Source: a virus
Strand: one strand, 5' to 3'
IMG/VR virus record: IMGVR_UViG_3300008050_007538
Location: 1 to 28,737 of that record
Length of the DNA stretch: 28,737 nucleotides
Below, in pieces: positions 18,033-21,845 of this stretch. Every line of letters begins with the position of its first letter. Position 1 is the first letter of the stretch. A program made the translations under genes and the position numbers. The notes beneath the pieces were generated by a model. The model worked only from the letters and a program-made list of their open reading frames with translations. It had not been told where the DNA came from and made no database searches.

Positions 18033-18890
18033 TCAGAGATTAAGCTTGCACTTGTCAGTTCCCTTGAACTCGCAGAAGGTGCACTCATAGCGATTCTTGA
18101 GTGTTCTCTCTGACTCGACCATCTTAATCATGCTGCGCAGCCACTTGAGAGCACGAGCAACTGTCTTAGGGCCGGCGGAGACTGTAAAGAGACCAATTCT
18201 GCTTGTCTTCTTTTTAACGTCACGCCTGAGAATGACGTAGCCGCATCGAGCATCTCGAAGCGGAATGTTGTTCTTCGTGGTCCAGAAATGCTTGTAGAGC
18301 ACAACCTGCATTGTCATGAAGAAGTCGGTGCGCTTTCGCTTATCCCAGCCTCGAGCGCCTGAGGTCTTCCAGTCAAGGATCCAGTAGATGTACTTGCCCT
18401 TCTTGTTCTTGACCTTGATGATGGCGTCGATGTATCCTCTGAATCTGAGCGGGAGGCCATCCATCTCTTCATTCAGCTCGGCTTCGGCTTCTACGAACTC
18501 CCATCCCGGGAATTCATTGTCGAGCCAATCCGGAATGACTGCGAGGATTTCACGACAATTGTCGAGCCAGCTCTCTAGCTCAGGATCCGCGTAAGACGGC
18601 CAATCGTCGGGCCACTTAGAGTAGACTCTCTTCTTAAGAGTGACATCAGGGAATTGACGCTCCTCTTCGGGGATATCTGGATAACCTCTCTCGACCCAGA
18701 TGTCCTTGATTTTTTGGGCTGCGCCATCGACGTCCATCACCCCGGTGCGAAGATACCCTTCTGCAGTGTCGTGAATGATGGTTCCGAAGTCTGTATAGAT
18801 GGTGTCACCGAACTCTCGTAGATCAAGGACATAGAGAAGCCAATGTCTCCAGGAACACTTGGCCCATGTCTTGAGTTCAGAGAACGACAT
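18033..18890 (-). CDS. PD-(D/E)XK nuclease, RecB/Cas4-like with probable Fe-S cluster (285 aa)
   Basis: I chose ATG at 18890-18888 rather than the in-frame GTG at 18920: the GTG lies inside a predicted hairpin, while the ATG gives the usual family start MSFSELKTWAKC. Visible motifs are GTIIH (H40), GYIDAI (D155), the catalytic LDWKT (D173 and K175) and QVVLYK (Q195-x3-Y199), i.e. motif order H...D...DxK...QxxxY of RecB-family exonucleases. Four cysteines, C12 near the start and C270, C273, C281 at the end, are arranged as in Cas4/AddB enzymes whose 4Fe-4S cluster closes the nuclease domain. The protein probably degrades or processes DNA ends in recombination, replication or host DNA breakdown. 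A Cas4 role is not implied: there are no CRISPR genes here. Confidence 0.85.
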   Translation of the reverse strand: MSFSELKTWAKCSWRHWLLYVLDLREFGDTIYTDFGTIIHDTAEGYLRTGVMDVDGAAQKIKDIWVERGYPDIPEEERQFPDVTLKKRVYSKWPDDWPSYADPELESWLDNCREILAVIPDWLDNEFPGWEFVEAEAELNEEMDGLPLRFRGYIDAIIKVKNKKGKYIYWILDWKTSGARGWDKRKRTDFFMTMQVVLYKHFWTTKNNIPLRDARCGYVILRRDVKKKTSRIGLFTVSAGPKTVARALKWLRSMIKMVESERTLKNRYECTFCEFKGTDKCKLNL

Positions 18891-18918
18891 GTGTTCTCGA
18901 TTTGTCGGGTAAGTATTC

Positions 18919-18951
18919 ACATCAACATCATACAGCGTGATGTGTCGATGT
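18919..18951 (-). other. Intergenic hairpin before the nuclease gene
   Basis: On the transcribed strand ACATCGACACATCA is followed by a 7-base loop (CGCTGTA) and TGATGTTGATGT. The arms pair over 12 base pairs including one G-U, with a 2-base bulge (CA). It lies between the YkuD-like gene and the nuclease gene. There is no following U-run, so it is unlikely to be a simple terminator. It covers the alternative GTG start and so favours the downstream ATG. A role in mRNA processing or stability is possible but unproven. Confidence 0.5.
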
Positions 18952-19595: not shown

Positions 19596-19630
19596 ATGCT
19601 CTAGTAACTATCTGCTTCAACTAGAAGCAT
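19596..19630 (-). other. Intergenic hairpin after the dehydrogenase C-terminal gene
   Basis: On the transcribed strand ATGCTTCTAGT and ACTAGAGCAT can pair over 10 base pairs with a single bulged T and a 14-base loop. A competing 6-bp stem, TGCTTC with GAAGCA around a 5-base loop, uses the same left arm. The structure begins at the TAA of the split-dehydrogenase C-gene and ends before the AGGAG of the YkuD-like gene. It has no U-tract. Alternative folding suggests possible regulation, but this is only visual. Confidence 0.45.
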
Positions 19631-19920
19631 TACTCGGCTGAGACTGCTCGACCGATTTGGCCCTCCCAATCACGATTATCACGGACTTCATCATTCTTGT
19701 CCCAAACGCCCTGCAGTACTATGGGTTCAACTCCCACTTGTCGAGCGACGAACATGATTGCATTGAGGTCTTTCGGAAAACAATTGTGATGAACAAGACC
19801 TGTTCCATCAATGACGAACAAATCATCGCCATAATCAGGCGATGATTTAAGATGGAGATTATAAACCTTTCCACTGAATGTCGTTTGATTGATTTTCTTG
19901 ATCTTCACTGTCCTAGTCAT
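19630..19920 (-). CDS. Split-intein C-half fused to C-extein of UDP-glucose-type dehydrogenase
   Basis: ATG (19920-19918) lies in the last codons of the endonuclease gene and has GGAG upstream at 8-base spacing, so it is translated on its own. Residues 1-46 are an intein C-terminal half: block F with KVYNLHLKSSPDYGDDLF and block G ending GLVHHN, where penultimate His45 and terminal Asn46 are the cyclisation residues. Residue 47 is the +1 Cys. Residues 47-96 are the C-extein, beginning CFPKDLNA, the active-site motif of UDP-glucose/GDP-mannose dehydrogenases (Cys260, with Lys and Asp of PKD, in Streptococcus pyogenes numbering). It ends DWEGQIGRAVSAE. The extein has no UDP-binding C-terminal domain. 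The codons are A/T-rich compared with neighbouring sugar genes. Function requires trans-splicing with the product of 20718-21845. Confidence 0.93.
   Translation of the reverse strand: MTRTVKIKKINQTTFSGKVYNLHLKSSPDYGDDLFVIDGTGLVHHNCFPKDLNAIMFVARQVGVEPIVLQGVWDKNDEVRDNRDWEGQIGRAVSAE
19783..19920 (-). other. Split-intein C-terminal fragment (IntC), 46 residues
   Basis: This is the coding stretch for IntC within the C-gene. It ends HHN followed by C-extein Cys, with His45 and Asn46. The length (46) is close to the 35-45 of known split-intein C-halves. Boundaries are read from the HHN|CFPKD junction at 19782/19783. Confidence 0.9.
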
Positions 19921-20686
19921 TCAAGATTCTCCGTTGTCTTAACTCATCACCAAAAATGATCCGGATTGTAATGTCTGGATGCTGCTCACGCAAGAGTTCA
20001 AACTTCTTTTTCTGTGACTTGAAATGATATCGATTCTTGATGTCAATATACATGTCCTCGTCGATCAAGTAAAAGTCTGGATAGTAGCTTCTCTCGTTTC
20101 CATCGATAATGTAGGGAATACGACCTCTATGTGCTACAAACCTAATCTCTTCGCGAATGAGATACTCAGCGTATGCCCTCTCCCATGTTCCCTGGACTTT
20201 GATTGATGTTCCATTAGGGTGCTCTAGGGTAAACCACTTGCATCGACCCACAGAAGCCCCGTCATACTTCCCTTCTTTCCAGGCCTTGCTCACAGCATCT
20301 GCTACTGCTTGTCTATTTTCGGGATTGCTAAAGTATTCTACTCTGGCTTTTGATACTCGCTGACGAGCTTCAGGTTGTTTCATCCCGTTTTTGTCGCCTC
20401 GATTGATTCCAGCCTTTGACAGCCTCTGCATATCGGCCCAGTCAGGATTTTCGTACTTCGCACTAATCGATTCTGACATTCGCTCTTTGTATGCAGATCT
20501 GTTATTCAAGATTTTTCGCCAACACTTCGGGCAATAATCTTTGTCGTAAAGAGGACTTGATTCCATTTTGATCTGAGACTGGTTGATTCTCGTGAATTTT
20601 GTCGAGCACTGATCGCAAATAAGATGAACAACAGATTTCGTTGTTACTCTGCCGTCTCGGCCCAATTTATCGTAGCTAATCTTCAT
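19913..20686 (-). CDS. Homing-endonuclease-like protein of the split-intein element (257 aa)
   Basis: I start at ATG 20686-20684; the preceding TTG is not needed and GGAATCTTG precedes the ATG. Residues 24-27 (CDQC) and 52-55 (CPKC) form a CxxC...CxxC zinc-ribbon. Residues about 65-145 carry Ser/Lys/Arg-rich short helices (MSESISAKYENPDW; KARVEYFSNPENRQAVADAV) like NUMOD-type DNA-binding repeats. Residues about 165-225 form the nuclease core: WERAYAEYL (E169), YYPDFYL (D204) and YIDIKNRY (D215, K217), a PD-(D/E)xK pattern related to very-short-patch-repair-like homing nucleases. It overlaps IntC by 8 bases. Sampled rows in the gene hold fewer G+C bases than neighbours (mostly 22-27 per 60, against 30-35). 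The gene probably spreads the split intein by cutting intein-less alleles; cleavage is not shown. Confidence 0.85.
   Translation of the reverse strand: MKISYDKLGRDGRVTTKSVVHLICDQCSTKFTRINQSQIKMESSPLYDKDYCPKCWRKILNNRSAYKERMSESISAKYENPDWADMQRLSKAGINRGDKNGMKQPEARQRVSKARVEYFSNPENRQAVADAVSKAWKEGKYDGASVGRCKWFTLEHPNGTSIKVQGTWERAYAEYLIREEIRFVAHRGRIPYIIDGNERSYYPDFYLIDEDMYIDIKNRYHFKSQKKKFELLREQHPDITIRIIFGDELRQRRILND
19921..19929 (-). repeat. Direct repeat copy 2, at the end of the endonuclease gene
   Basis: GAATCTTGA on the minus strand, immediately before the IntC ATG. An identical copy lies 765 bases away at the start of the endonuclease gene. It lies in the last codons of the endonuclease. Confidence 0.55.
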
Positions 20687-20694
20687 CAAGATTC
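20686..20694 (-). repeat. Direct repeat copy 1, at the start of the endonuclease gene
   Basis: GAATCTTGA on the minus strand, its last A being the A of the endonuclease ATG. It matches copy 2 exactly. Both copies sit between a GGA-type ribosome-binding site and a start codon, so shared function is an alternative to a shared origin. Confidence 0.55.
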
Positions 20695-20717
20695 CAGGGT
20701 CAGTGGTTCCTGATTAA

Positions 20718-21104
20718 CTATGGACCTGGGTCAAAAAACTCATCTGAGATATAGAGTTCGTCATCCATTGAGATGTCTTTTGCCATAACGATTGACATTT
20801 CTCCGTTTCTCTTGACGGGAAGAAGATGCTCTGGTGTACACTCGAAAGTTCGCTCTTTTCCGTGCGAGTCGAAAACGAACTCAATCATTGGGCCGTTGTA
20901 TTCTCGACATTCGACACCCTCTACAGCTTTGGAACCTCTACTAGAGAGAGTTGAATCGTAACTTCCCAGGTAGCCTGCCATGACGATACTTCCAGGGCTT
21001 TTGTACGATGCATGAATCTCAGCAGTTGTCCGAACATCCTTAATTGGAGACCAGGGCCCAGACAAGTCATCATCGACTTTGACAAGTCGATCTCCCTTGA
21101 CACA
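20718..21104 (-). other. Split-intein N-terminal fragment (IntN), 128 residues
   Basis: Coding stretch of the intein half including its stop. Block A starts at Cys248 and block B at CTPEH. At 128 residues it is longer than the roughly 88-105 of well-known split-intein N-halves, the extra length lying between A and B. Confidence 0.88.
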
Positions 21105-21845
21105 ATGACCACCGAAGCCGTAGCTTCCGTCGGGGCCTGGGACCGATAGATGCGTCTTTCCGATACGAGGATCATGGAGACCGTACTCGAGCACCTTATC
21201 GTAGTCGATGTCCAGACCGTTACAGATCTGGAACATCTCATTAGCGAAGCTCACCTTCGTGGCCAGTAGCGCATTGGTAAAGTACTTGACGGTCTCGGCG
21301 ATGGTAGACGATGTCTTAATGATCTTGACAGCTGGAAAGGCCTGCCGAAAGATATTCTTTACCGTCGTCGATGCTGGCCGAGGACCACCCACCACAATAC
21401 GAGTCTGATCTCGCATATCGTTCACCGGATTGGCTTCAGTGAGGAACTCGGGGTTAAAGACGATAGTAAGACCCGAGTCTCTATACTCAGCATTCCAAGA
21501 TTCTGTCGAGCCAGGTGGAATAGTTGACTTGACGACAGCGATTCGCTTGCCAGGCATACTAGCAAGCTCGTCAAGAACACCAGTAACAATGGAGAGATCA
21601 GCCTCTCCTGACTTGCGCATCGGAGTAGGAAGACAGACGAAGATAACCGGCACCGTGTTCTTTTCAGCTACACAGCCGACCATCTCTTCTAGCGATTCCC
21701 GAGGTAAAGTGTCAGGCACTGCTACCCCAGCTTTGTCGTAGGTGTACACCTTGAATCCCTGTTCGGCAAACACCTGGGCGAGGCTACCTCCTACGAATCC
21801 CTGTCCGACAACTCCGATGCTAGGCTTGTCATGTACTCGAGTCAT
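20718..21845 (-). CDS. N-terminal part of UDP-glucose-type dehydrogenase fused to split-intein N-half
   Basis: ATG (21845-21843) with AAGGA upstream. Residues 1-247 are the N-extein: the NAD-binding GVVGQGFVGG (11-20), VKSTIPPGST, NPEFLTEANP (131-140) and AETVKYFTN with K187 and N191, equivalent to the catalytic Lys204 and Asn208 of Streptococcus pyogenes UDP-glucose dehydrogenase. The extein stops at GFGGH. The intein then begins with Cys248 (CVKGDRLVKVDD, block A). Block B is FECTPEHLLPV (T337 and H340). The fragment ends with DISMDDELYIS and a TAG stop (IntN is 128 residues). The gene alone would give an inactive half enzyme that lacks the active-site Cys. It follows the carbamoyltransferase with a 17-base overlap. 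The mature enzyme would oxidise a nucleotide sugar (UDP-glucose or a relative) to its uronate. Confidence 0.93.
   Translation of the reverse strand: MTRVHDKPSIGVVGQGFVGGSLAQVFAEQGFKVYTYDKAGVAVPDTLPRESLEEMVGCVAEKNTVPVIFVCLPTPMRKSGEADLSIVTGVLDELASMPGKRIAVVKSTIPPGSTESWNAEYRDSGLTIVFNPEFLTEANPVNDMRDQTRIVVGGPRPASTTVKNIFRQAFPAVKIIKTSSTIAETVKYFTNALLATKVSFANEMFQICNGLDIDYDKVLEYGLHDPRIGKTHLSVPGPDGSYGFGGHCVKGDRLVKVDDDLSGPWSPIKDVRTTAEIHASYKSPGSIVMAGYLGSYDSTLSSRGSKAVEGVECREYNGPMIEFVFDSHGKERTFECTPEHLLPVKRNGEMSIVMAKDISMDDELYISDEFFDPGP

Follow-up and report, generated by a model that had tools for sequence, protein, structure and literature searches.

What kind of enzyme is encoded between the two halves of an interrupted dehydrogenase gene in a virus, and why is it there? 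The question is raised by IMG/VR virus record IMGVR_UViG_3300008050_007538, which was analysed over its whole length of 28,737 bp (the window). A UDP-glucose dehydrogenase (UGDH) gene is split in this record at the codon of its active-site Cys by a split intein, and a nuclease open reading frame (ORF) lies between the two UGDH halves. The best explanation, to which a probability of roughly 0.82 was assigned, is that the ORF encodes a homing endonuclease. The enzyme would cut UGDH genes near their active-site codons and would move together with either the split intein or a cut-resistant 3' end of UGDH.

The order of the parts was established from the translated window (Table 1). The N-terminal part of UGDH ends in VPGPDGSYGFGGH and runs directly into the intein N-part (IntN; CVKGDR to CTPEHLLPV). 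The nuclease follows, then the intein C-part (IntC) ending in VHHN, and finally CFPKDLNA with the rest of UGDH. The Cys directly after the insertion is taken to be the catalytic Cys of UGDH. Residues required for splicing were present (Cys1, TxxH and HN/Cys+1). A profile built from 16 IntN parts matched the solved inteins MJ0781 (E 5e-11) and the NrdJ-1 split intein (E 4e-5), and from these profile matches the intein is judged to be real; we infer that it joins the two UGDH halves by trans-splicing. As read from its gene order, the locus is a fractured-gene arrangement, in which a conserved enzyme gene is split by IntN and IntC and a separate nuclease ORF stands between them. A preliminary description of the window, made from its letters alone, had proposed a free-standing homing-type nuclease inside a fractured gene, and this anatomy agrees with it.

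Base composition marks the insertion as a whole. The nuclease ORF has 43.3% G+C against 49.9% (standard deviation 1.8) in windows of equal size and forms the lowest trough of the record; neighbouring genes mostly have 50-52%. G+C was 46.3% in IntN and 37.0% in IntC, and 52.1% and 49.7% in the N- and C-terminal exteins. The inserted unit (positions 19783-21104) as a whole has 43.6% against 50.0% in the remainder of the record. Since the trough is wider than the nuclease gene and spans the unit, the step in composition marks the insertion and not the nuclease alone. The A+T-richness first described is therefore real, although the counts given for it (rows of 60 bases holding mostly 22-27 G+C, one 30) were slightly optimistic, the rows holding 22-32. 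Nuclease G+C lay below that of the flanks in 30 of 37 loci of the family, by a mean of 4.5 points. Low G+C is thus a family habit that tells little about recency, and with the nearest nuclease relative 46% identical, the suggestion of a recent arrival was not upheld for this record.

The nuclease ORF and the residues singled out in the preliminary description (C24, C27, C52, C55, E169, D204, D215 and K217) were found exactly as claimed. Relatives were gathered by scans of IMG/VR, plus dehydrogenase-led scans, and their loci carry labels such as L041. In 35 relatives the four Cys residues, E169, P203, D204 and K217 were invariant and D215 was at least 90% conserved, a pattern that is not due to chance when kept across so many sequences. 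The zinc-ribbon-like Cys4 module was thereby substantiated, with no zinc-ribbon Pfam model exceeding its cut-off there. P203-D204 and D215-x-K217 together with E169 place the protein in the PD-(D/E)xK superfamily. The Pfam model Phage_endo_I (PF05367, T7 endonuclease I) matched residues 169-246 at 37.3 bits against a cut-off of 29.1 (E 2.6e-9), and was matched by 18 of the 35 relatives at E up to 1. A profile of the 35 relatives, compared with solved structures, matched T7 endonuclease I at E 3e-7 to 7e-6 (1m0d, E 3.4e-7), and no other nuclease among the solved structures was significant. In the HMMER alignment to 1m0d, D204 and D215-x-K217 fall on the PDF and ExK segments of the T7 enzyme. 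E169, the leading Glu, falls immediately before this alignment, which begins at profile position 170.

An AlphaFold2 model of a single chain had a mean predicted local distance difference test score (pLDDT) of 88.7. The Cys4 part and the core were confident (core pLDDT above 90) and the helical middle was less certain. Residues 64-137 form helices in the model and are the probable DNA-contacting region. These helices had been described as NUMOD-like repeats, an assignment that was not supported: the window nuclease had no NUMOD hit, and NUMOD3 gave marginal matches, below any curated cut-off, in 2 of the 35 relatives (best E 0.029). Comparison of the model core with known folds gave middling scores, namely TnsA at Z 9.2, I-Bth0305I (3r3p) at Z 7.5 with 21% identity, and Vsr (1cw0) at Z 6.7. 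All three are PD-(D/E)xK enzymes, so the fold named in the preliminary description holds; its assignment to the Vsr family fails on sequence. T7 endonuclease I, a domain-swapped dimer that resolves four-way junctions, was in neither fold-comparison list, perhaps because of that dimer.

Relatives of the locus are numerous among uncultivated viruses. IMG/VR yielded about 25 distinct loci at which a dehydrogenase gene is fractured and a window-type nuclease lies between the intein halves. All are broken at one common Cys codon; the dehydrogenases are of two types, with FPKD or HPRD after the Cys, and both types are UDPG/GDP-mannose dehydrogenases. In at least 16 other loci the UGDH is intact and a window-type nuclease lies directly 3' of it, and many empty dehydrogenase genes turned up in the dehydrogenase-led scans. 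One interrupted gene retains a nuclease remnant only (L138) and another is without a nuclease (L135); as read from their remaining parts, these are decay stages. No nuclease relative was found in named bacterial and archaeal genomes. Among sequenced phages, nuclease relatives went no higher than about 38% identity and none covered the two modules well; IntC had no match there. The nearest relatives of the window are 46% identical in the nuclease and 61% in the UGDH N-extein; without a closer UGDH, the window has no near-isogenic partner.

Near-isogenic virus pairs elsewhere in the family seem to catch transfer of the nuclease in the act. L041, with the nuclease, and L085, without it anywhere in its 35 kb record, share 97.8% identity across 1,106 bp of upstream sequence and 99.6% across 3,017 bp of downstream sequence. 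Their UGDH genes have 5 differences in the first 728 nucleotides and diverge from nucleotide 729, 28 nucleotides 5' of the Cys codon (nucleotide 757). Beyond point changes, their sole difference is a replaced block that includes the nuclease and extends to the last few UGDH codons. The L041 nuclease ends in SKKPKG, residues that come from the UGDH tail of the recipient itself. Behind the nuclease, a duplicate UGDH tail was clear in L023 only and, in short form, in L041. L165 and L166 show about 15-33 differences per 100 nucleotides over most of the UGDH 5' part and fewer in the last 200 nucleotides; the last difference lies 37 nucleotides 5' of the Cys codon and is followed by 1,846 identical nucleotides, a stretch that spans the nuclease and reaches the gene after it. 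L051 and L099 show a weaker step 34 nucleotides 5' of the Cys codon and count as a weak pair because their UGDH 5' parts differ by about 10%. In the fractured loci L279 and L280 and the empty locus L281, a common gene order extends over several kb, and the unit present in L279 and L280 sits precisely at the Cys codon. Presence and absence at one site with transfer of a block was thus seen in L041/L085, L165/L166 and L279-L280/L281, none of which is the window record. Excess divergence 3' of the site was greater in pairs where one member had the nuclease and the other lacked it than where both lacked it (medians 0.152 and 0.069; nominal p 1.4e-5, with pairs that are not independent).

Nuclease presence was mapped onto a UGDH tree and required 16 changes, no fewer than with shuffled labels; it does not follow the descent of the neighbouring UGDH. 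On the nuclease tree the fractured and intact-neighbour states required only two changes. The HPRD-type fractured loci form one clade (support 100/100), and the fractured trio L024, L037 and L178 is nested in an intact-neighbour clade (support 98/92). The root of this tree is not fixed, and either state may have come first. A separate origin of a homing endonuclease from a T7 endonuclease I-type core, in a lineage that switched at least twice between standing alone beside an intact gene and lying in a split intein at one target codon, is put forward tentatively, at somewhat less than an even chance. If true, it would show fractured genes and split inteins arising from neighbour-type homing.

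The active-site codons of intact genes vary with the nuclease. Intact UGDHs without it mostly have GG(H/S)CFPKD at the active site. The motif was altered in 18 of the 19 intact UGDHs that have the nuclease beside them and in 16 of the 61 that do not; in L041 it reads GGSCFVKD. Independent pairs, taken on a tree from which the site columns were excluded, were 7:0 for the altered motif with the nuclease (median p 0.016). When columns are ranked by their association with the nuclease, four of the top ten fall no more than 4 residues from the Cys (hypergeometric p 9e-5, kinship uncorrected). The altered motif presumably gives resistance to cutting.

These observations can be brought together as follows. 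The enzyme would combine a T7 endonuclease I-type PD-(D/E)xK core with an N-terminal zinc-ribbon and a helical DNA-binding part. During co-infection it would make a double-strand cut near the active-site Cys codons of any nucleotide-sugar dehydrogenase gene that is still uninterrupted. Repair from the donor would then copy in the unit of IntN, nuclease and IntC. Trans-splicing would join the two half-proteins, with the catalytic Cys as the +1 extein residue, and the interrupted gene would no longer present the cutting site. A sister group of the nuclease, lying just 3' of an intact dehydrogenase, would move without an intein, carrying with it a dehydrogenase 3' end with the altered, presumably cut-resistant motif. 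The copy in the window is presumed to be active.

Another possibility is that the protein belongs with the Vsr/EDxHD (I-Bth0305I-type) homing nucleases, like the enzymes of previously described fractured genes, and has only a divergent active site. The genomic arrangement is identical in kind and the predicted fold aligns with both I-Bth0305I and Vsr, a likeness that is kept as a caveat. Sequence profiles, however, match T7 endonuclease I and not Vsr, and TnsA stands above both enzymes in the fold list. Its second half-motif reads DxK, and all 35 relatives (35 of 35) keep the Lys, whereas Vsr has FxH there (PMC1189080); the preliminary description had already set the DxK apart from EDxHD. Membership of the Vsr family was rejected on sequence and this reading is very unlikely; the core is, by profile, in the T7 endonuclease I family, with a predicted fold resembling both. 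Homology to T7 endonuclease I invites a different objection. That enzyme and its phage relatives are resolvases, and a phage Holliday-junction resolvase or DNA-processing enzyme might have come to lie in a split intein by chance, serving replication or recombination rather than homing. Against this, the nuclease occurs patchily and independently of how the UGDHs descend, and whole records lack it; a conserved N-terminal module is added that the matched T7 core does not have; and the gene is tied repeatedly to one codon of one gene family. A chance lodging of this kind is most unlikely.

Ordinary recombination could also account for part of the evidence, if crossovers at conserved active-site codons dragged along a hitch-hiking gene whose product is inactive or acts elsewhere. 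The VPGPDG codons are among the most conserved of UGDH, so crossovers there are likely in any case and could have produced both the transfer boundaries and the link to the motif; the altered motif also occurs in some UGDHs without the nuclease. Pairs in which both members lack the nuclease, however, have far less excess divergence past the site, and insertion of the intein unit is exact to the codon. Catalytic residues kept across deep divergence point in addition to selection for activity. Hitch-hiking is judged unlikely. Several points nevertheless weigh against a homing endonuclease. T7 endonuclease I itself is structure-selective and not site-specific, and Foldseek with the full model gave no match with E below 0.001. 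The near-isogenic transfers were found only in the intact-neighbour branch and not in the window's own; the comparison of fractured and empty loci is at 75-85% identity. The class of altered motifs was defined after the data were seen, which makes its association suggestive and not a test, and 16 UGDHs without the nuclease belong to it.

Table 1. Features of the interrupted UGDH locus in the window
Feature	Positions	Strand	Basis
Homing-type endonuclease ORF, 257 residues from ATG, T7 endonuclease I-like core	19913..20686	(-)	Pfam, relatives' profile, model
Cys4 zinc-ribbon-like module, residues 24-55 (C24, C27, C52, C55)	20522..20617	(-)	35/35 relatives
Helical linker, residues 64-137, with GDKNGMK motif	20276..20497	(-)	AlphaFold2 model; conserved motif
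Predicted PD-(D/E)xK catalytic core, residues 149-257: E169, P203-D204, D215-x-K217	19916..20242	(-)	
UGDH N-terminal half fused to split-intein N-part	20718..21845	(-)	Pfam UDPG_MGDP_dh_N, UDPG_MGDP_dh
N-extein, 247 residues, C-terminal end ...VPGPDGSYGFGGH	21105..21845	(-)	
IntN, 128 residues, start CVKGDRLVKV, includes CTPEHLLPV	20721..21104	(-)	Profile match to solved inteins
Split-intein C-part fused to UGDH C-terminal end	19630..19920	(-)	
IntC, 46 residues, end ...GLVHHN	19783..19920	(-)	
C-extein, 50 residues, first residue the active-site Cys: CFPKDLNA	19633..19782	(-)	Weak UDPG_MGDP_dh match
Inserted unit (IntN, nuclease, IntC), 1,322 bp, 43.6% G+C	19783..21104	(-)	Composition step; relatives' clean insertion against empty allele

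The viral UGDHs (19630-21845 in the window; L041, L050 and L085) are short, at about 280-330 residues, and apparently without the C-terminal UDP-binding domain. PF03720 was unmatched in L041 and gave a weak match in the HPRD-type paralogue of L110 (445 residues). L110, L121, L124 and L131 each have an HPRD-type dehydrogenase within about 2 kb of an FPKD-type UGDH, and in other viruses each type is targeted by the window-type nuclease family. A RecB-like PDDEXK_1 nuclease gene is present at 18033-18920 of the window, and a similar gene lies directly 3' of UGDH in many related viral contigs. In L026 the window-type nuclease is followed by KVRKNRDWEDMK, apparently the decayed C-terminal end of a UGDH; upstream, no N-part of that enzyme was seen. 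A sister branch of the window-type nucleases is linked to tRNA genes. At about 14 loci (L062, L064-L071, L074, L075, L081-L083) these distant core relatives end within the 5' end of a tRNA-Phe(GAA) gene, with an overlap of 10-36 nucleotides (mostly 22); the nuclease end overlaps tRNA-Leu(tag) in L079 and abuts tRNA-Leu(taa) in L058.

On the homing reading, the cores known in homing would gain one of T7 endonuclease I type, and a single nuclease family would show intein-associated and free-standing life styles at one target codon. The natural pairs with and without the nuclease make testable both the formation of fractured genes and split inteins and viral immunity by mutation of an enzyme's own active-site codons. 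The set of about 25 related split inteins that share a splice site also offers candidates for protein ligation.

Fractured genes were reportedly described by Dassa et al. (2009, NAR 37:2560) as enzyme genes that a split intein interrupts, the two halves enclosing a free-standing nuclease gene; copies of the nuclease that stand alone are reported too. The hosts are said to be enzymes of DNA synthesis and repair, and the new nuclease family to be Vsr-related; later papers confirm the EDxHD/Vsr link. The window gene is likewise broken by a split intein around a nuclease, and stand-alone copies occur among its relatives; its host gene encodes a nucleotide-sugar dehydrogenase, and its nuclease is related to T7 endonuclease I. 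With I-Bth0305I of the EDxHD family (3r3p) the window protein shares a homing-type character and a similar predicted core fold, but has E...PD...DxK with an invariant Lys and no significant sequence match. With T7 endonuclease I (PF05367; 1m0d, 1fzr, 2pfj) it shares the catalytic core by Pfam and PDB profile, with PD...(D/E)xK aligned; it differs in adding an N-terminal Cys4 module and a helical region, and in being tied to one target gene rather than being a fixed phage gene. No published homing enzyme of T7 endonuclease I type was found in the open-access literature, a body outside which most subscription papers fall. An intein in the haloarchaeal UDP-glucose 6-dehydrogenase ("udp") is listed among archaeal inteins, with no mention of a split intein (PMC4071816). 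UGDH as an intein host is therefore not new, the likeness being at the level of the host gene. F-CphI of the DHHRN family, which takes part in collaborative homing in cyanophage psbA with a group I intron as partner, has a T4 endonuclease VII (beta-beta-alpha metal) core (PMC6083498). It resembles the window system in using a resolvase-related core as a homing endonuclease and in being encoded by a free-standing gene beside the gene attacked (PMC6083498), whereas the window combines a PD-(D/E)xK core with a split intein and holds the nuclease gene inside the split.
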